Below, piece by piece: positions 5,754 to 59,975 of a stretch of DNA of 64,000 nt. Positions within the stretch are counted from its first letter, which is position 1. Every line of letters begins with the position of its first letter. The stretch covers positions 5,587,001 through 5,651,000 of the forward strand of contig NC_088326.1 of the NCBI RefSeq assembly GCF_910592395.1, given 5' to 3'. The stretch is from Lineus longissimus (lineage: Eukaryota; Nemertea; Pilidiophora; Heteronemertea; Lineidae). The translations under genes were made by a program, and so were the position numbers. The notes beneath the pieces are model-generated. The model searched no databases, was not told the origin of the DNA, and saw only the letters and a list, made by a program, of their open reading frames with translations.

Positions 5754-8700
5754 AAACGATTAGGAGTAATGGACACAGCGGAATGCTAGTGCCAGGTAGC
5801 AGTAGTGCAGACACCAGTCCACATCCTTCAGGTTGAACGCAGAAGAAGAAGTAGAAGACGAAGACACTGTTTGACGGGTTTTTAGAGTTAGTGACATTGT
5901 CTTCGTCGGTATGTTGGTCTCAGACAGGCAGGAAATTGAGAGGTAAAAGTAAAGTCTTAAAGGTACGGTATTATAATTGTTGAAGAAACACTATTAGTTG
6001 ATGTATTACAAGTCCAGTGGAACTAACATATGTCTTCGACGTTTCATTGCAGCGCTTTGATACAATTTACTAGGGTACTTTGGTACATGTGATAGATCAG
6101 CCTTTCTGACATTCCCAATACCGCTGAAGATGTTCGACCTCCTTTAAAAAGTAGACAAATTGGAAGAAGTTATTCAATAAGTTGTACCATTTATTTAGCA
6201 GATAAATTGACATTTCAAAGACAGATTCATAAGAATCTCACAGATACAATGCAACCTAGTCCCTTTTTAGATGACATGGCTGTTATCTGTGCCAACAAAA
6301 ATGCGCAATGGCATTCAATTTAAGTTACATGAAATGTAGAACTCAACATACTGTTACTTGTAAAACGTAGTGTTGTAAAACGGACACAAGGCATGATCAG
6401 ATAGATAACAAGCTACAAGCTAATTATTGCCAATAGATCGAAAGGCAGTCTCATTCAAAGTACTACAATAACGCTAGACAACCATAATTAGTTAAATACA
6501 TTTTTACTCCTGCCCGGCCGCCTCTAGAAAATACACAAAAACACAACGTTTTGCGAAATTGAACTTACAAGTTAAATTCTCTGCATGGATGTTCCGTGCA
6601 GGGTAAAGGGTAGACATATTATTGCTACAACCTTTTTGTAAGTAAGCCCCTATTAATATACATTTCTATCTCAAATACAGCCTTCTGTGAAAGGAAATAT
6701 ATATTGTTCTGGTCCGATGAATATGATATCACCCCCGGCCGCAGGGAGGATGATAACAAATCGGAGGATATTACGTCATCAGGCATAACATCAGTTTTTA
6801 CGTACCGGGTAAGCTATTTTGCTTTATTTTATTTGTCAAATATGGTGCGGGGGTTAATGGTGGATATGTAATAATGATAATTTAATTCAACACCAACCAT
6901 GTAACATCGAAACAGGTGATGTTCCCGACTTATAATATTCAACAATAATGTCACATAAATACCTAAAACTGACATCATCATGAAATACAGCACAAAAAAA
7001 CAACTTATTTACAATACAACACAACACAACACAATTACAAAATATAACACAGTTCAGCACCGTCAACTCGATCAAACGCGTCCTCTCAAAGTCACCTGCT
7101 GTACAAAATAATGCAGGATCACTGTGAACCATTATGTTCCGCCTTGTTAAGGTGATCGACACTTTGTCTACACTCTAAAATATTGGTTTGTTTTTTTCGT
7201 CCAGGATTTGGCCAGAGATCCCGCCAGCGAATGAGGTAACGCCAGGAGATCATTATCAAGTCAACGTAAATATTGATATATAACTCAAATCATGCAGAGA
7301 GGCACGTTTACAACTTTTAACAGTACGTATTTTAAAGATTTTAATCTCGAAGAACAATTTTTACCCCTTGCCCACTCCTTTGGGGAATTCGAATGAGCAA
7401 CTCAGTCGGCAGTTCGAAGTCGGACCAAATTTCTAGATTTGATCCGATTACGCATGCGCATTGAAATTACGTAATCAATGTAACCAAGCCGTAACAGAGG
7501 GATACTTATTTACACGCAAGCATGACCGGAAGCAAAATCTGACAGTTTTGTTTGAACTTCAGCCGCCTGCGATCCTGATTAGTCCGATCGCGAGCTGGAA
7601 TGTTCATTGTTCGTCACCAGATCAGAGGTTTCCTGCAGACGTACTGGTGATGACAAAAAGGTTAATACCTGTTGACCCTTCTTCGTATATATACCTCAAA
7701 CCCATTAATTTTCGCGCCGTTCTATTTTTGCGAATCGCGAAAATTTCTAAAGGAAACATGTAATCGTTGCAGTTTTTCCAGTCGAAAGTTTTTTTTCGCA
7801 TATTATCTAGGTTATTCGCAAAATACGCGAAAATAAAACGCGCACAAAAATGGCAGTAGATGTGGTAATTCCCAAAAATTTACAATAAACTATTTTGATC
7901 ATAACATAATACGATATGACCATTTAAGGGTAATATAAATCAATATACAAACATGTAGGCCAGTCTATAATATTATAAAGGCAGGAGGAAAAAGATAACT
8001 ATAAAATAGTTATGTTTACTAATTCATTTTAGGAGTGTATATTACACTCTAGTAGATGCCCGGCACACTCATTTAAACTGAACGATGGTGTCATATCATG
8101 CATGTTTCCTATTTATCCAACGACGCATGATTATTTGTGGATAAAGACAATTAACAAGCGAACCAAAGTAGTTTAATTGAAAAATATATACACCATCCAT
8201 ATGCAGGAATTGCGTTCCGTATCGGCGCATATCCGGATGGACGCGGTTCGGTCAACTTGGAAATCAAAATTTCGTAAGGCAACTGTAGTGATGCATATTA
8301 TTAGGAAAACGACCCATCAAATAGCTCCTTACTGAGAAGAAAGCAGCATGACCCCCTCCCCCTTGGGTTATATATATGTGAATTCTTGCCATATACAACT
8401 ACTGAACGACCATTAAATGTATTGTATGAACACATTTAAAACTATGGCCTGTCGCGGCTTGTTTTTATTTTAGTTAAGACGAGAAAAACTTACCGCTAGA
8501 ACCCTTTTTAGTCACATGCCTAAACACTATTTTATAAACTTGTTACTTGAAATTCATAGTATTTACTGCGCAATCAGCATGCAAAATAAGCATGATACTT
8601 TTACTTTATAGTATATACTACCAATAGTAGAAGCACCAAGTGTGTATTCGTCTGGTGTTTACTCAAAGAGTAGTAAATATTTCAATCAACATTGCATAGA

Positions 8701-10617: not shown

Positions 10618-11160
10618 TGCTATAGCCGTGACGAATTGACAGAGAAAGGTTAATCAAGAGGTTCCGAGACCTCTACACTGGCCTCAGTCCCAAGTCGCTC
10701 ACCAACCGGCCCTATTGCCGTGACGGATTGACAAAGAAAGGTAAATCAAGATGCTCCGCGACCTTACACTGATCTCAGACCCGGACAGCTCATCAACAGG
10801 CCCAATATCCGTGACGGATTTGCCAAGAAAGGTCAATCAAGAGGCTCCGAGACCTCTACACTAGCCTCAGACCCAGTCAGCTCATCAACAGACCCTATAC
10901 CCGTGACGGATTGACAAAGAAAGCTCAATCAAGAGGCTCCGAGACCTCTACACTAGCCTCAGACCAAGTCAGCTCATCAACATACCCTATAGCCGTGACG
11001 GATTGACAAAGAAAGCTCAATCAAAAGGCTCAGGTACCTTACACTGGTCTCATGCCCAGACCGCTCATCAACAGGCCCTATAGCCATGACGGATTGACAA
11101 AGAAAGGTCCAAGAGGCTACGAGACCTTCAACTGACCACAGGCCCTGACCGCTCATCAAT
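10618..11160. repeat. six-copy tandem repeat, ~92-bp unit
   Basis: Six successive units begin near 10618, 10712, 10803, 10895, 10987 and 11078. Each contains CCGTGACGGATTGACAAAGA or a close variant, then TCAATCAAGAGGCTCCGAGA-like sequence, then CAGCTCATCAACA-like sequence. Units differ from each other at a modest number of sites and the last is shorter. The array lies 320 bp downstream of the stop codon of the minus-strand ankyrin gene and may be part of its 3' untranslated region. Confidence 0.9.
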
Positions 11161-11477: not shown

Positions 11478-14400
11478 TTAGACATACTGTTGCAACAGAT
11501 ATAAAGGTCGGAAATATGGCATTGGGTCTTTCGGCTCTGAATCGGCCCAATGTCTATCACCCGAATTCCATTTTCTCAGCTCTAGTACATAGCTTCGTTT
11601 CCTTCTTTCAAACACTGCCTTGGTCCGATAATACTTCAAAAGCGATTTCCCCTCTTCGTCAGAGTCGTTGTCCTTTACTGATGCGAAATCCCTCTCGTAC
11701 AGCGATCTCACATGATTCGACATGATCCGGGAAACTGTGAGGCTCTCTTTCGGACTCAACTTGGATCCTTCCAAAATATTCACACCTGGATTAAAGAACA
11801 TAGGAAGATGCTCAGCCTCGAGACATTTCTCCAAATGTTCATACACCATCAGTACCATTTTTCCGAGGGACATGTTCGAATACTGGAACAGCTGGACTAG
11901 ATGCAAGAACACAGATTTCAATCGATAGCTTGTAATATACTCACCTACCGGCTTAACATCCCCTTTTTCATTCTTGACTTTAAACCCGCACACCTCAGGT
12001 TTTCTCAAACACTTTGCCGTTATATACACGTTCTTGACACGTGCATCCAAGGTCTGTAGGTGTTTTACTTCGAGAGTTGCGTATGCCACTCTTCCAAGCT
12101 GACTGCGTTCATCAGGTGTGAAATTGGCCGCCATTTTGCTGTTTTCATGCGGAATTTTAGGTACTCTGTAACAGTGCATTTCTTTCAACTCATCTATTGT
12201 CATACTCCATGTTGCTGTTAAGTTGGATTCGTTGATAGGAATCTCAACAGCTGGAACAAAATCAATTGACACTGGCAGGTCATTGAACAAGCCATCACTG
12301 TACAACATGACCCATGTCGTGCAGGTCTTGTGGTCAGGATGTCGCTGTGGAGGTAACGTCATCTCAAGTCGTCTATCTTCACAACTAAGCACTGACTGGC
12401 CCTTACTTTGGCATTTATTCCAATAAGCCATCAATTTCTTCCACAGCCATATTCCGTATGACCCGATGATGTTAAGCCGCACTGCGGCCTGTTCGTCTCT
12501 TTCCATCTTTGCATAACCCTCACGTGGAGGCAACGGCGCCTGCGGAAGCTGTCTCACTTCATGTCCAAGGGCCTTATTGCAGTCATCCAAAAAGGACCTC
12601 TTCCCGTGTGTATTCCTCTCAGAGTTGACATGGGACAAGCTGATCATGTAGTCGAATTCATCAGGGAGGCCGTTCTTTGTACCTTCGAAAGAACTTCCAA
12701 CACCAATGACTTTCACCGAATGACTCTCATCATGAATAGCGCTGCGAATTATCTCGTCAACTTTATTCCTAACAAAATCAACGTATAGATAATTTGTATG
12801 TCCGTCAATGGCTTCCACTGATCCTATGTATGGTTGATGTACAATCTCATAGAATTTCGGACATTTTGAAACGTCTGGGCAACGTGGCTGGTCATGGTCA
12901 AGTGACAATATACTGAATCCTTTCGGTTTTTTGTTGAGTACTCTCGATATGACAGACACACTTTCACAACCAAACATATAATCTTTGGGCGTTTTTCCTT
13001 TACAGTCTTTCCTCTCAAATCCCGGATCGTCATTTGACTTCAGCAATACACTCACCACACCTGCGTTTCGGTACATAACAGCATAATGCAGACTATTCCT
13101 CCCAAACTTGTCAACCTGATAGGGGTCTATATTTCTGCCCATAATCAGTTTTGCAAGACTGGAATGGCCATAGATCGAGGCAATATGGAGAACCGACTGC
13201 ATTGCCTCATCGGTATCATCTATTTTACAGCCAGCATCAAGGAGGTCACTGAATGCATCTACATTTCCTATCTCACTAGCACAATGAAGGGGATTTTTAC
13301 CAAATATGTCTTTTGGATTTAAGTCGATACCTGATGTAGTCACTAAACATCTCATGTGTTCATGACATCCTAGACGTGCAGCTAGATGGAGAATGGTCAT
13401 ATCATAATCCCCTGGCGCATTACAATATATTTCATCAGATAAAATAGCCTGTAATGTGTTTGGGTCAGATTCCATAAGTATCATATGCAGTAACGACATT
13501 TCGGCTGTATCATTCACATCTATCGTAGCACTGGCCCCTATCAGTTTTTGTATTACTGTTGTATGTCCATATAATGACGCGCAGAAAATAGGTTTAAGAC
13601 CTAGCGCATTCTTGGAGTTTACGTCTGCGTCTTTGTCAATCAGCATCGCGACAGTCGTGGTATGGCCTTTTAAAGACGACCAATGCAAAGGCGTGAAACG
13701 ATACAAGTCACTTTCATTGACATCAGCGTCAGCCTCAATCAATTCCTTTGCAATCCCAGTATAACCAGAACGACATGATATAAGCAAAGCTGTGTCATTG
13801 TTACCATTCTTCATATTGACATCAGCCTTAGCTTTGATAAGTGCCTTTGCAATATCCGTGTAACCTCTTCCAGATGCTAATCCTAAAGCAGTGTCATTTC
13901 CAAAGCCCCCCTTGACATTTAGGTCAGCTTTAGCGTCAATCAGTGCCGTTGCAATATCAGTATGCCCATTATGAGAACATACATGCAAAGCTGTGAAATT
14001 GTCAACACCCTTTAAATTGACGTCAGCTTTAGCGTCAATCAGTGCCTTTGCAATATCTGTATGACCAAATTTACAACATAAATGCAAAGCTGTGTAATTG
14101 TCAACACCTTTCATATTGACGTCAGCTTTAGCTAGAATCAGTGCCTTGGCAATTTCAGTATGGCCATGCTGAGCACATAACTGCAAAGCTGTGTAATTGT
14201 CAATGCCAATACAATTGACATCAACATTAGCTTCAATTAATGTCTTGGCACTATCAATGTGGCCATGTCGGCATGTTGAAAGCAAGGGTGTTTCATTGTC
14301 CATCACAACTTCAGTAAATGCTTTGGTTGAACCATCGCTAGCAGGCGGCAAAAGCTGCAAGGTTTCATGTTTTTTCAAGTCATTGACACAAGCTTTCTCC

Positions 14401-17400
14401 TCAATCAGTGCCTTGGCAATATCGAGGTGACCAGCCTCCGTTGATAAATGCAAGGCAGTTGCATCGTTAATGTCCCTAATGTGAATATCAGCACCAGCTC
14501 CAATCAATGCAATGGCAATTTTGAAGTGGCCATTTGCAGATGCTGTATGCAACGCAGTAGTATTTGTTTGTTGCGACGTTATGTTTACGCCAGCTTTAGC
14601 CTCAATCAGCGCTTTGGAAATTTCAACGTGACCATTCCGAGATGAATAGTGCAGTGCGGAGAGATTGTCAGCGCCCTTAGCATTGACATCAACGTTAGCT
14701 TTTATCAATGCCTTGGCAATGTCAATGTGACCATTGGCTGATGCGAGATGCAAAGTAGTCTGATTTCTATCATTCCTGACATTGACATCAGCTTTAGCAT
14801 CGATCAATGCTTCGAAGATTTCAGTGTGACCATTCATTGATGACATGTGCAGGGCCGTGGCTTTGTTGATATCCTTGATATTGACATCAATGTTTGCCTG
14901 AATCAATGCCCTGGCAATATCAGTTTGACCACTGGCTGCTGATAAATGTAATCCTGTCTGACCGTTCCCATTAGTCTGGTTGACATCAACTTTGGCTTGA
15001 ATCAATGCCTTGGCAAAATCTGTATGATCATGTAATAATGATAGATATAAAGCTGTGTTATTGTCTCTGTTCTTCACATTTACGTCAGCATTAGCTTCAA
15101 GCAATTCCCTGGCAATATCAGTGTGACCTTCCTGACACGATATATGCAAAGCTGTGTCTCCGTCTAAAGAATGTGGTACTTGGTTCATTTGGTCAGTATT
15201 AACAGGAGTTATGTTCTTAATGTTGACATTAGCTTTGGCGTCTATCAATGCCTTGGCAATATCAATTTCACCTGCTTTAGCTGATAAATGTAAAGCTGTG
15301 TTATTGCCATAACCCAGGATGTTGACATCTGCATTGTTGGCTGCAATCAAAACCCTCGCAATATCAGTGTAACTTCGTCCACGCGAACGGAATGAGATTT
15401 GGTTGGTGTAGCAGCCGGGGTATGCTAATCGCATCAGAGCACGAGTAACATGATCTCCATCTATTGAAATGTGCAACGGTGCGTGATCGTCTTTACTCTT
15501 GATGTTCACATCAGCGCCATCTTCAATCAATGCCTTGACAATATCAAAGTGGCCGTTCAGAGTTGACAGATATAAAGCTGTGTTATCGTTTATATCTTTG
15601 GCGTCGACATCAGCATGAGCTTCAATTATGATCTTGGCAATCTCTGTGTGACCGCATGCTGACGACAAATGCAACGCAGTGACATTGAAACTGTCACGTT
15701 CATCGACACTAGCGTTAGCTTCAATGAGTGCCTTAACAGTATCTATGTGGCCTGCCTTTGAACAGTAATGCAAAGCAGTCTGATTGCGCTGATCCTTATC
15801 ATTGACGTCGGCACCAGCGCCAATGAGTGCTTTGGAAATGTCAATGTGACCGGCGCCAGCCGAGAAATGTAAAGCTGTACGATTTGCTTGATCCTTCAAA
15901 TCGACATCAGAATAAGCTGCAATGAGAGCTGCAACGTGACCTGCAAGTGAACAGGCATGCAAAGCTGTCTGATCGCACCAATTCTTAGCATCGACATAAG
16001 CATTGGCCGCAATGAGCGCTTTGGAAATATCGATATGACCTGCTGCAGACGAGAAATGCAAAGCTGTGTGATTGGTCCAGTCCTTCAAATCCACATCAGC
16101 ACTGGCCTTGATCAGTGCTTTGGCAATATCTGTGTTCCCAAGCTGAGACGATAAATGCAAAGCCGTGCGATTATCAACACCTTTGATATTGACGTCAGCT
16201 TTAGCGCCAATCAATGCCTTGGCTATGTCACAGTGACCGGCCAATGTGCATAAGTGCAAAGCTGTCTGTTCGTCTGCACTCTTGTTGTTGACATCAGCAT
16301 TAGCTTCAATTAGCATTTTGGCAATTTCAGTGTGACCTGTGCCCGATGATAATTGCAAGGCTGTGTAATTTGCAATACCTCCCTTGCTGTCTATATCAGC
16401 CCTAGCCTCAATCAGTGCCTTGGCAACATCAATGTGACCCCCCCTAGATGCTAAATGCAAAGGAGTGTTATTGTCTGCATCCTTGTCATTGACATCAGCA
16501 TTGGCTTCAATCAAGGCCTTGGCACTATCAGTGTGACCAGCATGTGCGCAGAGATGCAACGCTGTGAGGCTGCCCTTATCCTTAGAACTGACGTCAGCGC
16601 TGGCCGCAATCAGTGCCTTCGTAATATCAATGTGACCACCCACACATGAAAAGTGCAAAGCTGTACGATTGTTTAGACTTTCTGTGGCATTGACATCAGC
16701 ATTAGCTTCAATCAAGGCCTTGGCACTATCAGTGTGACCACCATTTGCACAGTGATGCAGAGCTGTGACGCTGCCTTTATCTTTAGAATTGACGTCAGCG
16801 CTGGCCGCAATCAATGCCTTGGTAATATCACTGTGACCACCCATACATGAAAAGTGCAAAGGAGTGTTATTGTCTACGTCCTTGTCATTGACATCAGCAT
16901 TGGCTTCAATCAAGACCTTGGCAATATCAGTGTGACCAGCATGTGCGCAGAGATGCAGAGCTGTGAGGCTGCCTTTATCCTTAGCATTGAGATCAGCGCT
17001 GGCCGCAATCAGCGCATTGACGATATCAATGTGACCACGGAGAGATGCAATTTGCAAAGCTGTACGATTGTAAAGACCCCCTGTTGTATTGACATCAGCG
17101 TTAGCTTCAATGAGAGCCTTGGCAACTCTAGTGTGACCTGTCCATGCGGATATTAGCAAAGCTGTCTGATTGCGCAAATTTGTAATGTTGACATCTGCAT
17201 TTGCTTTAATTAATGCCTCAGTAATATCAATTTGACCACCCATACATGATAAATGCATAGGAGTGTTGTGGTCTGCGTCCCTAACATTGACATCAACATT
17301 GGCTTCAATGAGTGCCCGTACACTGTCGGTGTCGCCATCCTGACATAACACAAGCAAGACCGCCGCATCAGCCTTTGCTTCAATTAATACGTTTGCTAGA

Positions 17401-17978
17401 TCTGTGTGACCTCCCTTTGATAAAAGCAAAGCTGTTCCTTTGTCTCGATGTTTGCTATTAACAGCGACTTTGGCTTGAAATAAAGCCTTGGCAATATCAG
17501 TCTGACCTTTTCTGGACGATAAATGCAAAGCTGTATCATTGTCTTCGTTCCTGATATCGACATCAGCATTGGCGTTGATTAATTCCATGGCAATATCAAC
17601 ATGACCTGCACTAGACGCTAAATGCAAAGCGGTGTTTTTAGAATAATTCAATGCATTGATATCAACACCAGCTTTGATCAGCTTCTTCACAACATCGACG
17701 TTACCTTTTCTGCATGAAAAATGTAAAGCAGTTTCATTGAAATCGTCCATGATATAGAAATCAACATAGGCTTCGAGTAGTAATTCAGCAAAGTCAGAGT
17801 AACCAGTTCTCGATGATAATTGCAACGCGGTGTCAGTTGGCCTGACGGTATCTTCAACCCTTTCCTTTTCCCCTCTTTTGAACTTACTCTGCACCATCTC
17901 TGCATAACATTCTTGTATCGCATCCACGATGTGTTGATTCAGTGGAATCGACCGTTTCTTCCTTGACGTGCCTCTCAT
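11478..17978 (-). CDS. giant ankyrin-repeat protein with C-terminal cGAS-like (Mab-21) nucleotidyltransferase
   Basis: An uninterrupted 2,166-codon frame. Residues ~49-1690 are about 47-49 ankyrin repeats of about 33 residues with consensus features TALHLS, GHTDIAKALI and ANADVN. Residues ~1700-2166 form a Mab-21/cGAS-type domain: the turn GSSFEG at 1761-1766, then DEFDY with E1774 and D1776, then SIDF with D1906. These match the three acidic metal ligands of the family. A later SYRLKS motif fits the helical Mab-21 C-terminus. Known family members (cGAS, cGAS-like receptors) bind foreign nucleic acid or other ligands and make cyclic dinucleotides that signal through STING; others have lost activity. 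Because the acidic triad is intact I infer a possible active enzyme. The ankyrin array could be sensor, scaffold or inhibitor. The ATG at 17976-17978 is the first after an in-frame TAA at 18036-18038, but a good splice acceptor lies between them, so coding may begin in an upstream exon. No signal peptide or membrane segment is visible; a cytosolic location is inferred. Confidence 0.93.
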   Translation of the reverse strand: MRGTSRKKRSIPLNQHIVDAIQECYAEMVQSKFKRGEKERVEDTVRPTDTALQLSSRTGYSDFAELLLEAYVDFYIMDDFNETALHFSCRKGNVDVVKKLIKAGVDINALNYSKNTALHLASSAGHVDIAMELINANADVDIRNEDNDTALHLSSRKGQTDIAKALFQAKVAVNSKHRDKGTALLLSKGGHTDLANVLIEAKADAAVLLVLCQDGDTDSVRALIEANVDVNVRDADHNTPMHLSCMGGQIDITEALIKANADVNITNLRNQTALLISAWTGHTRVAKALIEANADVNTTGGLYNRTALQIASLRGHIDIVNALIAASADLNAKDKGSLTALHLCAHAGHTDIAKVLIEANADVNDKDVDNNTPLHFSCMGGHSDITKALIAASADVNSKDKGSVTALHHCANGGHTDSAKALIEANADVNATESLNNRTALHFSCVGGHIDITKALIAASADVSSKDKGSLTALHLCAHAGHTDSAKALIEANADVNDKDADNNTPLHLASRGGHIDVAKALIEARADIDSKGGIANYTALQLSSGTGHTEIAKMLIEANADVNNKSADEQTALHLCTLAGHCDIAKALIGAKADVNIKGVDNRTALHLSSQLGNTDIAKALIKASADVDLKDWTNHTALHFSSAAGHIDISKALIAANAYVDAKNWCDQTALHACSLAGHVAALIAAYSDVDLKDQANRTALHFSAGAGHIDISKALIGAGADVNDKDQRNQTALHYCSKAGHIDTVKALIEANASVDERDSFNVTALHLSSACGHTEIAKIIIEAHADVDAKDINDNTALYLSTLNGHFDIVKALIEDGADVNIKSKDDHAPLHISIDGDHVTRALMRLAYPGCYTNQISFRSRGRSYTDIARVLIAANNADVNILGYGNNTALHLSAKAGEIDIAKALIDAKANVNIKNITPVNTDQMNQVPHSLDGDTALHISCQEGHTDIARELLEANADVNVKNRDNNTALYLSLLHDHTDFAKALIQAKVDVNQTNGNGQTGLHLSAASGQTDIARALIQANIDVNIKDINKATALHMSSMNGHTEIFEALIDAKADVNVRNDRNQTTLHLASANGHIDIAKALIKANVDVNAKGADNLSALHYSSRNGHVEISKALIEAKAGVNITSQQTNTTALHTASANGHFKIAIALIGAGADIHIRDINDATALHLSTEAGHLDIAKALIEEKACVNDLKKHETLQLLPPASDGSTKAFTEVVMDNETPLLSTCRHGHIDSAKTLIEANVDVNCIGIDNYTALQLCAQHGHTEIAKALILAKADVNMKGVDNYTALHLCCKFGHTDIAKALIDAKADVNLKGVDNFTALHVCSHNGHTDIATALIDAKADLNVKGGFGNDTALGLASGRGYTDIAKALIKAKADVNMKNGNNDTALLISCRSGYTGIAKELIEADADVNESDLYRFTPLHWSSLKGHTTTVAMLIDKDADVNSKNALGLKPIFCASLYGHTTVIQKLIGASATIDVNDTAEMSLLHMILMESDPNTLQAILSDEIYCNAPGDYDMTILHLAARLGCHEHMRCLVTTSGIDLNPKDIFGKNPLHCASEIGNVDAFSDLLDAGCKIDDTDEAMQSVLHIASIYGHSSLAKLIMGRNIDPYQVDKFGRNSLHYAVMYRNAGVVSVLLKSNDDPGFERKDCKGKTPKDYMFGCESVSVISRVLNKKPKGFSILSLDHDQPRCPDVSKCPKFYEIVHQPYIGSVEAIDGHTNYLYVDFVRNKVDEIIRSAIHDESHSVKVIGVGSSFEGTKNGLPDEFDYMISLSHVNSERNTHGKRSFLDDCNKALGHEVRQLPQAPLPPREGYAKMERDEQAAVRLNIIGSYGIWLWKKLMAYWNKCQSKGQSVLSCEDRRLEMTLPPQRHPDHKTCTTWVMLYSDGLFNDLPVSIDFVPAVEIPINESNLTATWSMTIDELKEMHCYRVPKIPHENSKMAANFTPDERSQLGRVAYATLEVKHLQTLDARVKNVYITAKCLRKPEVCGFKVKNEKGDVKPVGEYITSYRLKSVFLHLVQLFQYSNMSLGKMVLMVYEHLEKCLEAEHLPMFFNPGVNILEGSKLSPKESLTVSRIMSNHVRSLYERDFASVKDNDSDEEGKSLLKYYRTKAVFERRKRSYVLELRKWNSGDRHWADSEPKDPMPYFRPLYLLQQYV
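12261..12704 (-). other. nucleotidyltransferase catalytic motifs of the cGAS-like domain
   Basis: This is the active-site core inside the large reading frame. The GS turn (G1761-S1762) is encoded at 12693-12698, the E-x-D pair (E1774, D1776) at 12651-12659, and the third Asp (D1906, in SIDF) at 12261-12263. In the cGAS family these residues hold two magnesium ions and the nucleotide triphosphate. The spacing between the E-x-D pair and the third Asp is about 130 residues, longer than in human cGAS. I see no H-CC-C zinc thumb, so it resembles invertebrate cGAS-like receptors more than vertebrate cGAS. Confidence 0.8.
16500..17110 (-). repeat. higher-order two-ankyrin repeat inside the gene
   Basis: Within the ankyrin array, units of two ankyrin repeats (about 66-67 residues, ~200 bp) are repeated three times with very similar DNA: on the plus strand the word CAGCGCTGGCCGCAATCA and the word GCACTATCAGTGTGACC or a close variant recur about every 198-201 bp (for example near 16522, 16723 and 16921). 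This points to recent unequal exchange or gene conversion within the array. Confidence 0.8.
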
Positions 17979-18008
17979 TCTGTTTGTGTCTTCGGCCTTC
18001 GACGGTAT

Positions 18009-18030
18009 GCTGCAGAAAAAAAGAATGAAT
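18009..18030 (-). promoter_or_regulatory. probable splice acceptor upstream of the ankyrin-cGLR start
   Basis: On the minus strand a pyrimidine tract (CTTTTTTTCTGCAG) ends in AG at 18011-18010. From 18009 the frame is open through ten codons into the ATG at 17978. An exon boundary here would mean a 5' exon further up, carrying either untranslated leader or additional N-terminal coding sequence. Confidence 0.6.
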
Positions 18031-26493: not shown

Positions 26494-27241
26494 CTCCACT
26501 TTATAAAAAGAGAAGAAGCTTGTAATGAAGCCACTTTTGAGTATTACTTACCTGAACAATCAAACATAGAGTATATTACTTTGAAATCGATAGCCTTTTA
26601 CAATTCTTGGTGGACAGTTGATGTCATTCCAGGTATCATTGAATTGGTCAAAACGAAAACTGAAATGGGTGGGGAAACCATCTAACTCTTTCACAATTAA
26701 TTTTGATGCTCATTTTACTTTAGCAGAACTGTGTTCCTTTATCACGGAGCACCTCAAAACTATTGCAGGGCCTGTTCAATTCAACTATGACAACAATAAC
26801 TACATTACAATTGAACTTACTGAAGACAGGCCGTTTATGCTGAATGATTACTATTCCGGGGATGAGTATTTTACAATAGTGAATACCGGTAAGTGGTTTG
26901 GATTTAAACAAGAAAGATTCACCAAGAAAGGAAAATAATACACCACCAAACCACTTAACTTTTACAGAACACAATTTAATTTAAGATCGAATTTGGTTGA
27001 CCAAAGTAAGACGCTCTACAACAATAAACCTTCTGACATCTTTTGCATTGTACCAGTGGAAAATGGCGACCAGATAAAGAACCAGAGATACGAGCTTAAT
27101 TGTACTAAAGTTGTGAACAAATGTACAAATCATCTCAAATTTGAAATCATTGATGATTGGGGTAAACTGGTTAATTTCAGAGGAATGCCAGTTGTTTTTG
27201 ATTTTTCATTTGTAACTGTAGACAATGTATTCGGTGAGTAA
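26464..27241 (+). pseudogene. virus-like structural protein remnant (unrecognised family, possibly minor capsid of a Maverick/adintovirus-like element)
   Basis: Three neighbouring open pieces (26464-26685, 26618-26938, 26993-27241) read as one protein broken by a frameshift near 26650 and by a stop near 26938. Features: alternating beta-strand-like sequence, a first part with YITLKSIAFYNSW, and a late segment with VNFRGMPVVFDF. This style resembles small structural proteins I associate with large DNA mobile elements and related viruses integrated in invertebrate genomes, but I cannot name the family with certainty. It is the only plus-strand gene of a compact cluster whose other members are on the minus strand. 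Not functional as it stands. Confidence 0.45.
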
Positions 27242-27307
27242 CTATGCCATCAAGAATAATTTTGGTTCTTTAACCACCTCTTTCACCACAGGCCAGGGTA
27301 TCTACCA

Positions 27308-27655
27308 TTACAAGGGTATCATCACAACTTTCTCTTTAACACTCTTTAACTTTTTCTTAAACTTAAAGTAAATGATAATGAAAAAGGCAATACCTGCTCC
27401 AATTACATAGAATGTCATATTAGATGAGGTCCTAGAGACAGTTTCACTTGATTCATACCCTGGTTCTGGTCCAAGCGACGCTCTCTGGACTTTGTCCGGT
27501 TCTGGTTCTGGTTCAGCTTTTTGTTCTTTGAATGTTGTCTTGTCCCTTTTAACCGCTTGAATTCCTGAGACCTTTTACCTAACTCCCGTGACCAATTGCT
27601 TCTCTGATCTGGCTTTCTTGGGTTTCTCAATGGTTGTCACTCGCGTTACAGGAGC
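27308..27655 (-). pseudogene. basic, Pro/Glu-rich protein with one C-terminal membrane segment (virus-like cluster)
   Basis: The minus-strand frame ending at the TAA at 27308-27310 encodes, in order, a Lys/Arg-rich part, a PEPEPE stretch with GPEPGYESS, a hydrophobic helix around FYVIGAGIAFFIIIYF and a Lys-rich tail. That is the layout of a tail-anchored or single-pass membrane protein with a cytoplasmic basic end. The upstream part (RSEKQLVTG region near 27600) is in another frame, so a frameshift lies near 27570. No family assigned. It sits tail to tail with the plus-strand structural-protein-like remnant. Confidence 0.5.
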
Positions 27656-27659
27656 CTTC

Positions 27660-28110
27660 TTATTCTCTATTTATCGTAATTGATTTTTCCTGGTCCTTAC
27701 CGATGTTATCTTTGGTATCGGTCTCATTATAATGTCTTAAAGTGATAAGAGTTGATGATGCCAAAGCAAATAACGCTTCCATCCTCAGACTCACCCACCC
27801 TAACCATTTGTCCAGTTCATTGGTAACTACGTAATCATTTCTTAAGTCTTTATAGAGAGCATCTGCATCATCAACAGGCAAGAACAACTTTGTTAATTTA
27901 GTGTAAGCGTTTTAATACTGTCTTACCCAATGAATCTTTAAGTGTAGCAGCCATCTTTGTCTGGTAGATTCTATGGTGTTTCAAGATTTCCTTCTCACTT
28001 ATGTTGTCTAAGTCATTAAATGTAATATGTTTATTCAGGAAGTCCTTGCTTTTACCAGTAGCTACAAGCACTTTAAGATCTTGTTTGGCTTGAAGGCCAC
28101 TATCAGTTAA
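27660..28110 (-). pseudogene. helical protein remnant (virus-like cluster)
   Basis: A 75-codon frame (27660-27887, with LPVDDADALYKDL and LASSTLITL) continues upstream in a shifted frame to about 28110, where QDLKVLVATGKSK and ISEKEILKHHRIY are encoded. A stop and a one-base shift separate the parts near 27900. Predicted mostly helical, no membrane segment I am sure of, no family recognised. Codon use and AT content fit its neighbours in the cluster. Confidence 0.45.
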
Positions 28111-28149
28111 GGTTTGTTGACTGCTAGTCGAGGCTTGTTGATTCGTAGT

Positions 28150-28345
28150 CTAGACAAGGCCTTGGCGAGGGGGGCACTCGATTTGAACAAATTGGCGACT
28201 TAATATTAGCACCTTGTTGCTTTGTTGTGTAATTCTGTTGACAACTAGCATTGTTCTGTTGAAAGTTAGCTGCATTCTGTTGAAAGTTAGTTTGAAATGA
28301 GATAAGCTGGATTTGAACTTTCGTTAACTGGATTAATTACTCCCA
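28150..28345 (-). pseudogene. Gln/Asn-rich frame (virus-like cluster)
   Basis: On the minus strand a frame encodes repeated NFQQN-type units (FQTNFQQNAANFQQNNASCQ region), followed by KQQGANIKSP. Low-complexity Gln/Asn-rich segments occur in structural or assembly proteins but give no function here. Boundaries are uncertain and stops occur at both sides. Confidence 0.35.
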
Positions 28346-28436
28346 TGTGTTTCATTTGCTGCTCAATTATCGTTGATGTTTGACTATTCATTGTATTTAA
28401 TAGTAGGTAAAATCACCCTGAATCAGTCTTGTGACC

Positions 28437-28520
28437 TGAAAGCAAAGCTCGATCTGACTATGTTATGAGAGCAAAGCTCGGTCTGACTACTTCATAAGAG
28501 CAAAGCTCGATCAGTCTTTT
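28437..28520. repeat. three-copy GAGCAAAGCTC tandem repeat
   Basis: GAGCAAAGCTCGATCTGACT, or a variant, appears three times at about 32-bp spacing. The core GAGCAAAGCTC is palindromic except for its centre. It lies between two minus-strand frames of the cluster and could be a promoter or terminator relic, or simple duplication. Confidence 0.65.
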
Positions 28521-28541
28521 GACTTGTGACCTCTTTGGCTT

Positions 28542-28943
28542 TTAAGGCGCTTGGTAAAACCTGACTTTTCTACTCAGACACAGTCCTGATGGATAGCTAC
28601 TTTCTTGACATTCCAGAACACAAAGTAAAACGTCACTCTGCTGCGTTAATGCGTCTTCCTCTTCCTTCACAAGTCTGTAGGTCTTGAAGAAAACACTACT
28701 TGTGAAAGCATACCATAATTGATTCAAATCATTCATTCTATCCTTGTTTGTTGAATAAAGATTCAGCACTAAATAATCTATTTTCAATTTATCAAAAGCT
28801 TGGTTTAAAAATACATGATTTTTTATGGTTACTTTAATCCAACAATAATGTAGGTATCTGAGATATGCATGGTAAACCAACCTCAGATCTGTAAAATTGT
28901 CTTCAGTTAATTGAGGCTTACCGAGTGCTCTGTTAATTAACAA
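28542..28943 (-). CDS. unrecognised 130-residue protein (virus-like cluster)
   Basis: An open frame with helical character (LRLVYHAYLRYLHYCW near the start, LNQLWYAFTSSVFF in the middle). It has no ATG at its beginning; the open part starts with TTG and overlaps the end of the upstream frame (28933-29337) by 11 bases. Either the two are overlapping genes, or they are one gene broken by a frameshift at that point. No domain recognised. Confidence 0.45.
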   Translation of the reverse strand: MLINRALGKPQLTEDNFTDLRLVYHAYLRYLHYCWIKVTIKNHVFLNQAFDKLKIDYLVLNLYSTNKDRMNDLNQLWYAFTSSVFFKTYRLVKEEEDALTQQSDVLLCVLECQESSYPSGLCLSRKVRFYQAP

Positions 28944-29337
28944 ATTCTGCCTCTAAAATCCAGTCACAGTCACCATAATGAATTTCAAAAAGCAGTGCAT
29001 GCCGAGGTAACCCTTCACGCCTTAATTTAGATGGGAGATTGCTGACGCCAGTTTCAAATGCCCGCTGAATTGTCCTTTCGTATCTGGCATTACACAACCA
29101 TTTCATTGGGCTTGAGAAGTGGCACTGCAAAGACGCTTCAACATTAATCTCAAGACCCTGGAAACCATCATCATTGTAAACAACCACATTACAATAGATG
29201 CATAACTCGTATGTAAACGTATCACCAGGCCTCGTTGGGTTTAAGTCCTTCTTGTATTCATACAGTGTCCATATTTTACAATTGTGGCATAATACGGCAT
29301 CATACGGCATAACATCGGCATCATACGCAGATATCAA
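28933..29337 (-). CDS. unrecognised 134-residue Cys-containing protein (virus-like cluster)
   Basis: The frame encodes LCHNCKIWTLYEY and later CIYCNVVVYNDDG, two Cys-x-x-Cys pairs about 30 residues apart that could form a zinc ribbon, then a C-terminal part with EIHYGDCDWILE. It is the most upstream minus-strand member of the cluster. The start is uncertain because the codon at the start of the open stretch need not be the true one. Function unknown. Confidence 0.45.
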   Translation of the reverse strand: MISAYDADVMPYDAVLCHNCKIWTLYEYKKDLNPTRPGDTFTYELCIYCNVVVYNDDGFQGLEINVEASLQCHFSSPMKWLCNARYERTIQRAFETGVSNLPSKLRREGLPRHALLFEIHYGDCDWILEAEFVN

Positions 29338-29447
29338 TCGTTGTTATCGTGCATTTATCCTTTTACTAGTAAGATCTATGTGAAAGGTCGAAGTTAGACC
29401 ACTTCATAGTTTTTCACAATATTTTTGATTTAATAAAAAGCCATTAT

Positions 29448-40771: not shown

Positions 40772-43445
40772 ATGCTTATAATGCAAACGTCCGGAAAAGA
40801 AACCCGTTTGCAACTCTCGACGAAACCTGACGTAGCTGAGATATGTATCCCGAGTGTGGATACGGAGTTTACCCATGCTATGTATGTGTACGGAATCGGG
40901 ATAACGTGTCTGATTGGCATCATATTAAACACATTCAATATAATAATCTTCACCAAGGTTAATTGTACGAAATCACTTGGGTTATATCTTCTGAGATGTT
41001 TAGCCTTCTGTGACCTTGCCCTTCTCGTAGTCTCTTTCATCGCTTTTCCCCTGAGGCACATTATAGCCAGGCTTGAGCTCGGTGACAGGAAATTCTTTCT
41101 CTGGGACGACATGTATATCCTGCCATATCTATACTACTGCGTTCACGTGCCGTACTATATCTGTTTACAAGTCAGGAATCACGCCATGGTGGTAATCGCA
41201 GTAGACAGGTAAGAGCAGAATCTGTCAGGTCATGCACATTTAAATTACCCCCTGATGCCCCGGACTACACGCAGATGACGCGATGTATTTTTTATAGTTT
41301 TAGTACGAATTTCGGCAATGATATGATAACCCTTAGGCCTACTCCGATGATTTAAGGAATTGATACTGAACTGTAGGTGTTGATTATCTCTTTAAAACCG
41401 CGAGGGTGGAGCTAAAATGAACATCACCCAAGCAAGTTTGGTGAGACAATCAATACCTGCAGTGACTTATCAATTTCTATTCGACTAAAATATCTCAAAT
41501 TTGATAACGAATTACGCGGTTAAAATGATTTTATTTTGAATTATTCCATATTATGCACCAACCCAAGGCTTATGGTTACCTAGCCATAACCGCTGAATTC
41601 AAAACGAGGCCCTGTAGGTGCACAGTGCATTTACACTGTAAACTCTGTTTCATTATACTGTTGTGTTTTGTTGACATCAGTGAAGTTGAGGCTCTGGATA
41701 ACGAACTGGCCCTTCTCCCTCCAACAAGTGAATTAGGATTATTAGTAAGGTACTTTACTATATTATTCTTGAGATATAGTGATATTCTTACCTCAAGTGA
41801 CAGTCAATTTGGATTAAAAAAGGATATTTCTGAAACTTTTTGTAGCTTTGTTACGGAAGAGGTGATAAGATATTACATCAATAATGATACCCCAGTAGTG
41901 TATTCTGCAATGCTAGATACATTCAAGGCATTCGATTGTATCAACTTCATCAAGTTATTCAGGATATTGCAACGCAAGGGATTGTGCCCCCTCAATTCAC
42001 ATTTCTTAGCGACTTTGTATACCACTCAGAGAGTGAATATTAGGTGGGATGATTATACCTCCCCCTTATTTACTGTTTCTAATGGAGTTGAACAGGGGGG
42101 AGTGCTGTCTCCGGTTCTTTTCAACATGTACAGAGAGGAACTTCTCGATAAGCCGAATAGTTAAAAAGTAGGGTGCCATGTAGGCCATTATTTCGCTGGA
42201 GCTTTGGCGTAGGCCGACGACGTTTATATCATTCTTGCTCCGTCGCTATTGGCTCTGCGACAAAAGCTCATATTGTGAGATGAATATTCTAAAGAGTGTA
42301 AGATCATGTTCAATGCTGGGAAATCTAAACTGCTAGTTTTTGGCGTAAAGAATGTAGAAGACATTCTGGTCCGCTTTATTGGCATTGACATGACCCACAG
42401 TTTACATGAAATACATCTAAGAATTCCTATAGGGCCAAATATAGAGTGAGAACGAGTTCAAACAACAGTATCTGACATGTACAAACGTACATATTTATTA
42501 TTAGCGCAGTTTTAATATGCCTGTACTGTGGCGAGATATGCCTTATTCAAAAGTTTTAGTATGTCCCTTTACGCAGCCCAATGCTAAATTTGGCTCGACC
42601 CCATATCCAGAGTGTATACACTGCGTGGAGGAAATGTGTGCGTAGGGTTCTGGGAATTTCACCCAGAACCCACATTCTTGGCGAGCAGACGGGGACGTTG
42701 CGATGTCAAAGCATTTGGGGTGTTTCTAACTGATAACTCCCTATAGAGAGCCTTCTTTTTGCATTTTTACCGCATTTTAGTCTGTTCTTCCAATCACCTG
42801 TACCAAGAGAATTCACACCCTAAAAATTATGTCTATCATTTAAGATTCCTGCAGCTGACCAACCCTCTAAAGGCAAAGATCTACGCAACTCGGGAAAATG
42901 CCAATAAAGTCTTTGCGGCCATTACTTTCCTTGCCTTGGCTTGCAACGCATGGCGATATGCTTGGTCATTTATTGACGATCGAGGCGAATTGGGGAATCC
43001 GTGTTACCCAAAAGGATTGTCGTGGTTATCAGGATATGCATGGGGGTACGATTCCGACATCTACTTTTACATAATTGTCCTGTTTGTAACTCCTCTTTTA
43101 CTATTACTATTTTTCAATGTTGGTGTTGTCTTTTCGCTAATAGCTGGCATGCGCAAAAGTGACGCATTTGCGCAGTCCAAATCTAAAAGTAACGCCACGC
43201 ATGCGCAGCATCGGTTATCTATTATGGCAACTTGTATTATCACATTGTTCCTTGTTTGTGAAATACCCTCTTGTCTTGATCGAATGCTAAGTATGGCAGG
43301 CCACCAGTGGATTGTATTGAATAATTTCAGCAGGAGAACAGGTCTATGGCTTGTTGCTATTGATTCCTCCCTCAATTTCGTCATCTATCTGGTAACCAAT
43401 CGGTCGTTTCGAAGGTGTCTGTTTCGTAACGATCAACCATCCTAA
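40772..43445 (+). CDS. class A GPCR, peptide-receptor type, copy 3
   Basis: Exon 1 is 40772-41208 and exon 2 is 42845-43445, with the same splice words as copy 2, giving 345 residues. Helices, DRF and NFVIY are as in copy 2. Differences from copy 2 are scattered single residues, including several in the second extracellular face and in loop 2 to 3 (for example FLWDD for FLRDD, MYIL for MQIL), which could alter ligand preference. No stop or frameshift seen. An alternative start Met lies four codons in. Upstream DNA is interrupted by the BEL fragment about 0.9 kb before exon 1, so regulatory sequence may be changed relative to copy 2. Confidence 0.85.
41740..42780 (+). pseudogene. LINE ORF2 fragment C, in GPCR copy 3 intron
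   Basis: Same RT segment as fragments A and B. Here the active-site box is preceded by a TAG where copy 2 has Tyr (near 42210), and FGLKKDISET replaces FGFKKGLSTT. Stops after 42164 and more downstream. Dead. Confidence 0.87.
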
Positions 43446-48675: not shown

Positions 48676-49551
48676 ATGGGCAAGAACAAAGGGAATAAGC
48701 ACTCGAGGCCGAGCTCCAGTTCGACAGGCATGAATACTCCGGACAAGCGGCCAAAGCTAAGTGAAACGACAGGTGAGGAAATTCCTGTTTTCGAGGACTT
48801 AGTCAATAGTGAAAACGTTGAGCAGGCTCTGCATGATCTTTTATCAGGCCCTAAAATGAAAACGCTCATAATGGGTTTCGTAGACAATGCGTTGTCCCTG
48901 TTAAAAGACGAGCTTATGAAAAACTGGGAAACTTCAGTGAATCGCTTAGAAGGTGAAATCTTCAACCTGCAAAAAGTAAACGACTCCTCGAAGGAAGAAG
49001 TCAGGCGTGCGCATATGGAACTTGATAAATTTCGTGATGAGAACATTGCTATGAAAAATCGATTAATCCGTGCAGAACGGGACATTGATGAATTAGAAAT
49101 GTACGGGCGTCGGAATGGGATTCGCATATTTGGAATTCCAGAACGTGACCGTGAGAACTGTATCGATATAGGAGTCAAACTGTTTCAGGACAAGCTGAAC
49201 ATCGCGGTACCGATCACTGAGATAGGTAGAGCCCACAGAGTAGGACGGTTTAACCGGGATCCCCGCACAGGGGCGAAACCCCGCCCGATAATCTTCAAGT
49301 TCGTGAGACACGAGATGAAAGCATTGGTGATAAGGGCACGGCGCCGCCTCAAAGGAACGGGTAAAGTGATCAGGGAAGACTTGACTGCGTACAGGAAAGG
49401 ATTAATCGATTCTGCCAGGGCGATACAGGGTGTGACTTCCGTTTGGTCAAACGACGGTCGGGTCACAGCACTCTACAACGGAGGGAAGCATATGATATCT
49501 TGTGAAAAAGACATTGAAAAACTGCGAGCCATCTCTAACTCTGGCTCATAG
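48676..49551 (+). CDS. LINE ORF1 protein
   Basis: 291 codons, intact, with a strong start context (CAACCATGG). The N-terminus is hydrophilic and Ser/Lys-rich; a helical, coiled-coil-like part spans about residues 70-140 and leads into LEMYGRRNGIRIFGIPE, a hallmark of LINE ORF1 proteins, followed by a basic RNA-binding-like part with RPIIFKFVRHEMK and GRVTALYNGGKH. ORF1 proteins bind the element RNA and form the particle used for retrotransposition. The last 18 codons are repeated downstream as part of a tandem array, although the frame itself ends normally with TAG. Confidence 0.9.
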   Translation: MGKNKGNKHSRPSSSSTGMNTPDKRPKLSETTGEEIPVFEDLVNSENVEQALHDLLSGPKMKTLIMGFVDNALSLLKDELMKNWETSVNRLEGEIFNLQKVNDSSKEEVRRAHMELDKFRDENIAMKNRLIRAERDIDELEMYGRRNGIRIFGIPERDRENCIDIGVKLFQDKLNIAVPITEIGRAHRVGRFNRDPRTGAKPRPIIFKFVRHEMKALVIRARRRLKGTGKVIREDLTAYRKGLIDSARAIQGVTSVWSNDGRVTALYNGGKHMISCEKDIEKLRAISNSGS

Positions 49552-49905
49552 TTCCGATGGACTCTTCTGAACCAATATGTTCTTCGAACTTTCAGCGTAT
49601 GATCTCTTGTGAAAAAGACATTGAAAAACTGCGAGCCATCTCTAACTCTGGCTCATAGTTCCGATGGACTCTTCTGAACCAATATGTTCTTCGAACTTTC
49701 AGCGTATGATCTCTTGTGAAAAAGACATTGAAAAACTGCGAGCCATCTCTAACTCTGGCTCATAGTTCCGATGGACTCTTCTGAACCAATATGTTCTTCG
49801 AACTTTCAAGCGTAATGATCTCTTGTGAAAAAGACAGTGAAAAACTGCGAGCCATTTCTAACTCTGGTTCATAGTTCCGGTGGACTTTTCTGAACCAATA
49901 TGTCA
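49490..49905 (+). repeat. ~107-bp tandem repeat made from the ORF1 3' end
   Basis: About four units. Each has TCTTGTGAAAAAGACATTGA, then CTGCGAGCCATCTCTAACTC, the stop, then GACTCTTCTGAACCAATATG and TTCGAACTTTCA. Units 2 and 3 look identical; the last is diverged (GACAGTG, CCATTTCT). The repeat begins inside ORF1, so ORF1 C-terminal codons are duplicated into the spacer. Confidence 0.92.
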
Positions 49906-50339
49906 TGATACTTGTACTCAGCTACTCGCTCTCTTAGATTGGACTCTAAAAAATATGAACCTAGATAATTCGGACTTTACGCTTTTGATCGTAATACGTG
50001 ACAGGTACAGAACTTTTATTTTATTGCCATATTGCTTACTAGCCTCATCTCACCAAATCGCAATGAGTTTGATATACCTTTTCTGGCTCATCTTCTTCGA
50101 GCAACTGATGTTTATCAATCACTTAAATCTTAACTGTAAATATTTATCACGTCATTATTTTCCACAATTGTTAACCAACCTTTCAGCACTTTTAATTCTG
50201 TTTCCTTTGCCCATATACATGTACAGGATAAATTTACATATTGTTATTTCATCTCCACTATGTCATTTTATGACTGACACAATCGTATACATTGTTTCTT
50301 TTCTAGGCAGTTCACTCCACACCTACTTGTTCTCTCTTA

Positions 50340-53300: not shown

Positions 53301-53435
53301 TCAAAACAAACTCTAAACAAACTCCACTCAAATTTTAGCTTAACATCCTTTTCAACATACTACAAAAATGAAATTTTGGGTTCCTATAATAAAAAGTGCC
53401 AAATTCGCAACTGCTATGTTTGCGACATTCGTTAA
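50340..53435 (+). pseudogene. LINE ORF2: AP endonuclease and reverse transcriptase, two stop codons
   Basis: The frame from ATG 50340 runs 793 codons to TAA at 52719-52721, then continues in the same frame past a second TAA at 53133-53135 to 53435 (1,032 codons in all). Endonuclease motifs: SMNCQSLN near the start, CLQET, AGDYNID and SDHQP. RT motifs: IFMDLSKAFDTLDH, GVPQGSILGPLLF and FADD near codon 740. The part after the first stop is the LINE C-terminal region. ORF2 would supply nicking and reverse transcription. The two nonsense codons in an otherwise well-kept frame suggest a rather young but dead copy. No frameshift was noticed. Confidence 0.9.
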
Positions 53436-59018: not shown

Positions 59019-59975
59019 GTTGGGGCGGTTAGGTTCTCTCATTCCCAGCCGCCAGTCACAATCTGGTAAACTTTTGTCTCAAGTATGAATTTTGGCAATG
59101 ATCATGGGTCGGGGTCCTATCATTCACAGCCACGAGTCACAATCTGGTAACTTTTTGTCTCACGTATGAAGTTTGGCAGTGATCATGGGTCGGGGTCCTA
59201 TCATTCCCAGCCGCCAGTCACAATCTGGTAACTTTTTGTCTCACATATAAAGTTTGGCAGTGATCATGGGTCGGGGTCCCATCATTCACAGCCACGAGTC
59301 ACAATCTGGTAACGTTTTGTCTCACATATAAAGTTTGGCAGTGATCATGGGTCGGGGTCCTATCATTCACAGCCACGAGTCACAATCTGGTAACTTTTTG
59401 TCTCACGTATGAAGTTTGGCAGTGATCATGGGTCGGGGTCCTATCATTCACAGCCGCCAGTCACAATCTGGTAAATTTTTGTCTCAAGTATGAATTTCGG
59501 CAATGATCAGGGGTCGGGGTCCTATCATTCACAGCCACGAGTCACAATCTGGTAATTTTTTGTCTCACGTATGAAGTTTGGCAGTGATCATTGGTCGGGG
59601 TCCTATCATTCCCAGCCGCCAGTCACAATCTGGTAAATGTTTGTCTCAAGTATGAATTATGGCAATGATCATGGGTCGGGGTCCTATCATTCACCGCCAC
59701 GAGTCACAATCTGGTAACTTTCTGTCTGACGTATGAAGTTTGGCAGTGATCATGGGTCGGGGTCCTATCATTCACAGCCACGAGTCACAATCTGGTAACT
59801 TTTTGTCTCACATATAAAGTTTGACAGTGGTCATGGGTCGGGGTCCCAGCATTCCCAGCCGTAAGTCACAATCGGGTAACTTTTTGTCTCACATATAAAG
59901 TTTGGCAGTGATCAGGGGTCGGGGTCCTATCATTCACAGCCACGAGTCACAATCTGGTAACTTTTTGTCTCACGT
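59019..59975. repeat. 81-bp tandem repeat array (~12 units)
   Basis: Units contain GTCACAATCTGGTAAC, TTTTTGTCTCACGTATGAAG, GTTTGGCAGTGATCATGGG and TCGGGGTCCTATCATTC, spaced exactly 81 bp in most places (for example ATCATGGGTC at 59101 and 59182). Two unit types alternate, marked by GCCGCCAG and GCCACGAG. No coding role. Confidence 0.95.

Follow-up and report, generated by a model that had tools for sequence, protein, structure and literature searches.

An ankyrin array fused to a cGAS-like nucleotidyltransferase in Lineus longissimus, and modular arrays with contact-site selection among its paralogues

In a stretch of 64,000 nucleotides from the nemertean Lineus longissimus (contig C20, positions 5587001-5651000, in a genome of 391 Mb and 30 contigs), hereafter the window, a single gene joins about 48 ankyrin repeats to a C-terminal nucleotidyltransferase (NTase) domain homologous to cGAS, in which the conserved acids of the active site are kept. 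The gene belongs to one group of ankyrin-fused NTases in the same genome, and some of its paralogues carry arrays that change in length by modules and show selection at the positions expected to contact a target. On these grounds, we consider it an even chance that the gene encodes a cGAS-like receptor (cGLR), in which the ankyrin solenoid would provide recognition or control and the NTase would be the signalling enzyme, with a cyclic nucleotide as its output.

The original prediction, made from the letters of the window, held that one frame joins ankyrin repeats to a Mab-21/cGAS-type NTase. This is confirmed: the minus strand carries a single frame of 2,166 codons (2,166 amino acids), from an ATG at 17978 to a stop codon at 11478-11480, and the motifs lie where they had been placed, with GSSFEG from residue 1761, DEFDY from residue 1773 (E1774, D1776) and SIDF from residue 1904 (D1906). 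The features of the gene are the following:

18010..18025, minus strand: polypyrimidine tract followed by AG, resembling a splice acceptor, immediately 5' of the exon (from the sequence)
11478..17978, minus strand: open reading frame for the ankyrin array and the Mab-21/cGAS-like NTase, 2,166 codons plus stop, apparently a single exon (from frame and translation)
13005..17837, minus strand: ankyrin array, residues 48-1658, 44 scored units over a span of 48.8 units (from Pfam and a position matrix)
16195..17309, minus strand: section of the array that recurs at roughly 198 bp (two repeats) and 399 bp (four repeats), its copies resembling one another at about 78-83% (from DNA self-similarity)
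12651..12698, minus strand: GS...E-x-D motif, residues 1761-1776, with E1774 and D1776 (from translation, paralogue alignments and PDB profile alignments)
12522..12590, minus strand: insert of about 23 residues (about 1797-1819) between D1776 and D1906, missing from 14 of the 15 aligned paralogues and 5 residues long in L014 (from alignment)
12258..12269, minus strand: SIDF with the third acid, D1906 (from translation, paralogue alignments and PDB profile alignments)
11754..11972, minus strand: Mab-21_C (PF20266) helical domain, residues about 2003-2075 (from Pfam)

The acceptor-like sequence ttctttttttctgcag lies upstream of the ATG and ends at 18010, which is why the gene had earlier been closed at 18009; it follows that the open reading frame is probably one large exon, preceded by further 5' exon(s). 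A chance frame was ruled out by the length of 2,166 codons and by purifying change between the repeats, since six pairs of duplicated repeats within the frame have a ratio of amino-acid-changing to silent change (omega) below 1.

In the N-terminal part, Pfam Ank_2 matches the frame with an E value of 4.2e-274, and an iterated position matrix, trained on 17 frames and with a score threshold taken from shuffles, places the 44 units above threshold, in agreement with the 47 to 49 repeats first estimated. An ankyrin model derived only from the window's own repeats counted too few units in the relatives and gave way to the 17-frame matrix. As the contact set we used repeat positions 2, 3, 5, 13, 14 and 33, the six that are randomised in designed ankyrin repeat proteins (DARPins) and known as contacts with a target. 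Among the 40 units of the window array before residue 1480, the most variable canonical positions are 2, 13, 5, 14, 32 and 3, and five of these six (2, 13, 5, 14 and 3) belong to the contact set, as in natural ankyrin repeats. A structure model of eight repeats was unusable, with a predicted local distance difference test (pLDDT) score of 53.0.

In the C-terminal part, Mab-21_C scores 32.9 bits, above its curated cut-off of 24.1, and it is likewise above cut-off in six of eight paralogue frames. The window NTase was aligned with those of 15 paralogues (alignment and profile A1), L027 being left out because its NTase is split. None of the 16 aligned NTases deviates in the three acid columns (E-x-D and the third D), and 15 of them have GS, L020 aligning as GG. 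Against the PDB, profile A1 retrieved 44 distinct sequences at E ≤ 0.1, all but two of which are cGAS, cGLR1, MB21D2, a Mab-21 protein or the "uncharacterized" 4jlx/4kb6, presumably pig cGAS. The best E values are those of 4jlx (1.5e-12), cGLR1 8gjw (1.4e-11) and cGAS 5xzb (1.8e-11, covering positions 60-378), followed among the weaker matches by MB21D2 at 6.4e-4 and, at 0.04-0.08, by two rows for ribonuclease P. In three of the alignments GS, E-x-D and D fall on corresponding residues, the acids on the catalytic ones of cGAS. The proposed homology to cGAS is thus upheld by the profile match to 5xzb and the alignment of the acids. The window NTase alone has cGLR1 8gjy as its best PDB match (E 1.3e-4), over two short stretches, and its single-sequence structure model was unusable (pLDDT 36.3). 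The gene resembles cGAS (5xzb and others) and cGLR1 (8gjw, 8gjy) in having an NTase by profile, E-x-D and a third D in alignment and a Mab-21-type C-terminal domain, whereas these PDB chains have no ankyrin array. We set aside an origin from OAS-type or bacterial CD-NTase enzymes, the profile having matched almost only cGAS and Mab-21 proteins in the PDB; PADLOC gave no family, and no relatives were found in viral_contigs or genome_contigs.

A profile search of the L. longissimus genome with the Mab-21 NTase model (PF03281) gave at least 25 places, the window gene not among them; the search scores the best candidates, so that family counts are lower bounds. Fifteen places lie in an open frame with ankyrin repeats, one (L027) is interrupted and nine have no ankyrin repeats in frame, which gives at least 16 ankyrin-Mab-21 open frames, the window gene included, plus the interrupted copy. 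Ankyrin repeats were called by Pfam in 10 of the 16 paralogues and by the position matrix in L012, L015, L023, L024, L026 and L029, and by that matrix none of the 16 has fewer than 7 units. The nine places without ankyrin repeats were judged on their own frame only, L033 by eye and the other eight by models. PF03281 was above cut-off in all eight paralogue frames of one Pfam run and below it in L028 (22.6 bits). In a tree of the 16 ankyrin NTases and eight ankyrin-less Mab-21 frames of this genome, rooted at the midpoint only and drawn without L027 and L033, the ankyrin NTases form one side of a branch with support 100/99, and the simplest reading would be a single ankyrin-NTase fusion followed by duplication within this genome. 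The window NTase has a long branch (1.56) and its placement is unsure. L001, the best PF03281 match in the genome (E 5.8e-43), has no ankyrin repeats in frame and falls outside the ankyrin group; we read it as Mab21L-like, and such Mab21L1/2-like proteins share the superfamily of the ankyrin NTases.

Five of the paralogues (L023, L024, L025, L028 and L029) lie on contig C17, at 0.28-0.92 Mb and on the same strand, and L020 belongs in the tree to a different subfamily. The five C17 genes also have tandem 31-residue repeats at the C terminus, after the NTase; in addition, a repetitive open stretch, distinct from the exon, precedes it on that strand. L027 (G000:C15:1819000-1828900) is a C17-type copy off C17, with an ankyrin frame, an in-frame stop at 8073-8075 in the catalytic motif and then the remainder of the NTase; judged from this arrangement, it is a case of gene decay within the family. 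The ankyrin-less Mab-21 frame L033 (G000:C6:16938000-16941000) stands beside a same-strand frame with hydrophobic, membrane-like stretches, and the two are possibly one transmembrane Mab-21 gene.

The NTases of the five C17 genes are 93.0-98.8% identical in DNA, and their arrays span 9.9, 18.9, 37.3, 41.4 and 45.5 units in the position matrix. The self-identity of these arrays at a lag of 67 residues is 0.69-0.72 in L023, L028 and L029, 0.54 in L025 and 0.29 in L024, against 0.12-0.14 at a lag of 33, and therefore the module of the C17 arrays is a pair of repeats (67 residues). The arrays differ in length largely by such two-repeat modules: in five pairwise alignments, 7 of 11 gaps within the array are at most 2 residues from a multiple of 67, the other four measuring 129, 206, 301 and 33, with 129 and 206 together making five modules. 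In the NTase part, 24 of 90 columns are variable at about residues 1820-1924 (window numbering) and 5 of 180 in the helical part that follows, which is thus clearly held constant among the C17 copies.

The repeats of the C17 genes were compared between genes in 47 distinct, non-identical reciprocal-best pairs (of 64, at an identity of at least 85%). At the contact positions omega is 4.98 (63.8 amino-acid-changing and 3.2 silent differences; bootstrap 2.5-19.5), against 0.73 (bootstrap 0.57-0.98) at the non-contact positions of the same pairs, and the proportion of amino-acid-changing differences (pN) at the contacts stands out from random six-position sets with a p value of 0.0001. When L027 and repeats with lower scores are included (91 pairs), omega is 2.86 at the contacts versus 0.75 in the rest, and contact omega is 2.7-2.9 at other identity thresholds. 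Amino-acid change thus exceeds silent change at the contact positions of the C17 arrays. Furthermore, omega was computed within the arrays of the window gene, L020, L023, L024, L025, L027, L028 and L029. The values for contacts and rest are 2.15 and 0.48 in L020, 3.22 and 1.14 in L023, 6.33 and 0.59 in L025, 1.69 and 0.55 in L027, 3.88 and 1.49 in L028, and 1.46 and 0.75 in L029; L024 has no silent change at the contacts (2 pairs) and an omega of 1.55 in the rest. Within L010 and L021 there was no usable repeat pair, and the comparison of L017 with L022 rests on one repeat pair only. In a test that left out the window gene and L024, pN at the contact positions is raised in the six other arrays (p 0.0056-0.018) and the corresponding silent proportion (pS) is not (p 0.11-0.77). 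This contact-site selection in paralogous arrays lends indirect support to the idea, already part of the original prediction, that the protein could be a sensor whose specificity comes from the ankyrin solenoid.

If the window gene encodes a receptor of this kind, the concave face of the solenoid would bind a target protein, such as a component of a pathogen or a self protein that infection has altered, and the binding would free or cluster the NTase. The enzyme would then join nucleoside triphosphates by means of metals held on E1774, D1776 and D1906, and its cyclic nucleotide product would activate a STING-type receptor. A candidate ligand-binding exon of STING on contig C11 scores 27.4 bits against a cut-off of 27, and the next open frame after it looks, by eye, like a continuation of that domain; STING is probable in this genome, as far as such sequence matches can tell.

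Several observations weigh against the proposal of an ankyrin-guided receptor. On a re-scan, the STING exon on C11 scored 26.5 bits, below the cut-off, and the open frame after it had no PDB match. The array of the window gene itself has no excess at the contacts (omega 0.56 versus 0.42, 6 pairs, Fisher p 0.37). Among the C17 genes, contact omega itself differs from that of random six-position sets with a p value of only 0.06, because silent differences are few, and single pairs of genes, each too small, are not significant; between the repeats of L013 and L015, omega is below 1 in both classes (0.44 at contacts versus 0.12), with silent sites saturated. Moreover, relaxed constraint may contribute to the C17 pattern, since omega outside the contacts is about 0.75 between genes and 0.55-1.55 within arrays, and in the NTase it is 0.65-1.12. 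The repeat pairs are not independent, owing to common ancestry and possible exchange, so that the p values are guides and not proofs. Lastly, the window gene does not literally match the active-site pattern published for cGLRs, h[QT]GS X8-20 [DE]h[DE]h X50-90 h[DE]h (Li et al. 2023, PMC9980059), having GVGS and 129 residues between the second and third acid, and a relaxed pattern likewise gave no match. Among the paralogues, this spacing is 85-112 residues, and the residue before GS is mostly C, V or I, with T in L010 only. Human cGAS has 92 residues between the two acids, compared with the 129 of the window gene. Of the active site first described as intact, therefore, the three acids E1774, D1776 and D1906 stand, and the residues leading up to GS and the acid spacing depart from the published pattern; on its sequence, the domain is homologous to cGAS and retains the acids, but that pattern, read literally, does not make it a cGLR.

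An unlikely alternative, the best placed among those we weighed, is that the protein is an ordinary cGLR, whose NTase would itself detect a ligand, for instance a nucleic acid, on its back face, the ankyrin array only localising or inhibiting the enzyme. Long ankyrin arrays often act as scaffolds, and some paralogue NTases are basic, as in L029 (net charge +8.7, pI 8.84). However, the NTase region of the window gene has a net charge of 0.0 (isoelectric point, pI, 7.0) and six of the 15 paralogues are negative, so that the spread among the paralogues, from -7.5 to +8.7, reveals no common nucleic-acid-like charge; in addition, selection on the contact positions of the paralogous arrays is unexpected for a constant anchor. 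It is more doubtful still that the gene encodes a non-catalytic Mab-21-type protein, an ankyrin scaffold in which the NTase fold would be structural, as is possible for Mab21L1-like proteins. The non-canonical GS motif and the long acid spacing would suit such a protein, as would the score of PF03281 in the window gene (18.5 bits, E 0.0022, below the curated cut-off of 24.1) and the omega of 0.65-1.12 among the C17 NTases, but none of the 16 sequences departs from the three acids, even though identity between the window NTase and the rest is only 28-35% (26-32% in A1), an argument for a metal site that has been retained. Finally, a decaying copy or chance join that no longer yields a functional protein is very improbable: the window is rich in retroelements, the related L027 is interrupted by a stop and the window NTase has a long branch, and yet the frame has no stop in its 2,166 codons, its repeats are under purifying change outside the contacts (omega 0.37-0.42) and the same fusion occurs in 15 other open frames.

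Around the gene, a 92-bp tandem array of 5.9 copies lies at window positions 10620-11159, some 320 bp past the stop codon, with no DNA match among the family loci compared, the tails of the C17 genes included. Positions 21642-44198 hold several segment copies, 88-95% alike, with fragments of a Pao-type peptidase and of reverse transcriptase, and one of these repeated segments contains a 7tm-like frame (42759-43442). Within this region, adjoining open frames lie on both strands at 26594-29343, where none of the seven frames scanned had a Pfam family above cut-off. A LINE-like element follows at 48676-53432, with one frame that is L1 RBD-like, another that matches an endonuclease (weakly) and a reverse transcriptase, and a 107-bp tandem array between the two. 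At 59032-60815 there are two blocks of a satellite with an 81-bp unit. No Rfam match and no tRNA was found within the window.

The combination of a cGLR with ankyrin repeats is already known. In the available part of the survey of Li et al. (2023, PMC9980059), some cGLRs carry ankyrin or TPR repeats, 87% have no extra domain, and three cGLRs of Stylophora pistillata are fused to further domains, ankyrin repeats and death domains among them. The expectation that most such proteins have no long array is thus borne out, and the architecture is not without precedent. Both the animal proteins of that survey and the window gene combine, in one protein, the cGLR NTase core and the C-terminal helical domain with ankyrin repeats; the present case differs in its array of about 48 repeats, in the 16 open frames that one genome holds and in the modular build of the arrays, and the same part of the survey describes no array length, ankyrin gene family, selection on ankyrin repeats or active ankyrin-cGLR. 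Such a fusion is absent from the accessible portions of PMC9334734, PMC6321704 and PMC13319465, and among the papers listed in searches of the open-licence literature none was on the ankyrin arrays of cGLRs, judged by title or abstract start. As far as searched, the ankyrin-NTase gene family, the repeat dynamics of its arrays and the contact-site selection are new, and the last two rest on the paralogues and not on the window gene.

A closer parallel for the arrays comes from fungal NLRs with ankyrin, TPR or WD repeats, for which the available text of Dyrka et al. (2014, PMC4986451) reports repeat similarity within an array, polymorphism in repeat number and positive selection mostly on the concave ankyrin face. 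The C17 genes present all three traits, namely, variation in repeat number, repeat similarity and an excess of change at the contacts; L020 presents repeat similarity and contact selection, and the window gene itself does not present the contact excess (6 pairs, p 0.37). On the other hand, the fungal proteins have a NACHT or NB-ARC core and other effectors, and their polymorphism lies between strains, whereas the comparison here is between paralogues of one genome. By analogy, the C17 genes resemble fungal NLRs at their arrays, with a presumed cGAS-type output, and are not NLRs themselves.

Tentatively, and with somewhat less assurance than for the receptor reading of the window gene, it is possible to hypothesize that animals possess a class of cGLRs, diversified in the germline, whose specificity has shifted from the surface of the NTase to a modular ankyrin array, which would grow and shrink by modules of two repeats and be under diversifying selection at its contacts, resulting in an NLR-like repertoire with a cyclic-nucleotide output. 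Characterised cGAS-like receptors are reported to recognise their ligands, nucleic acids where these are known, on the enzyme itself. If the arrays do sense, they would represent a second, evolvable trigger of animal cyclic-nucleotide signalling, able to follow protein targets, and for this the C17 genes offer a ready comparison, with a near-identical enzyme joined to arrays of about 10, 19, 37, 41 and 46 repeats.

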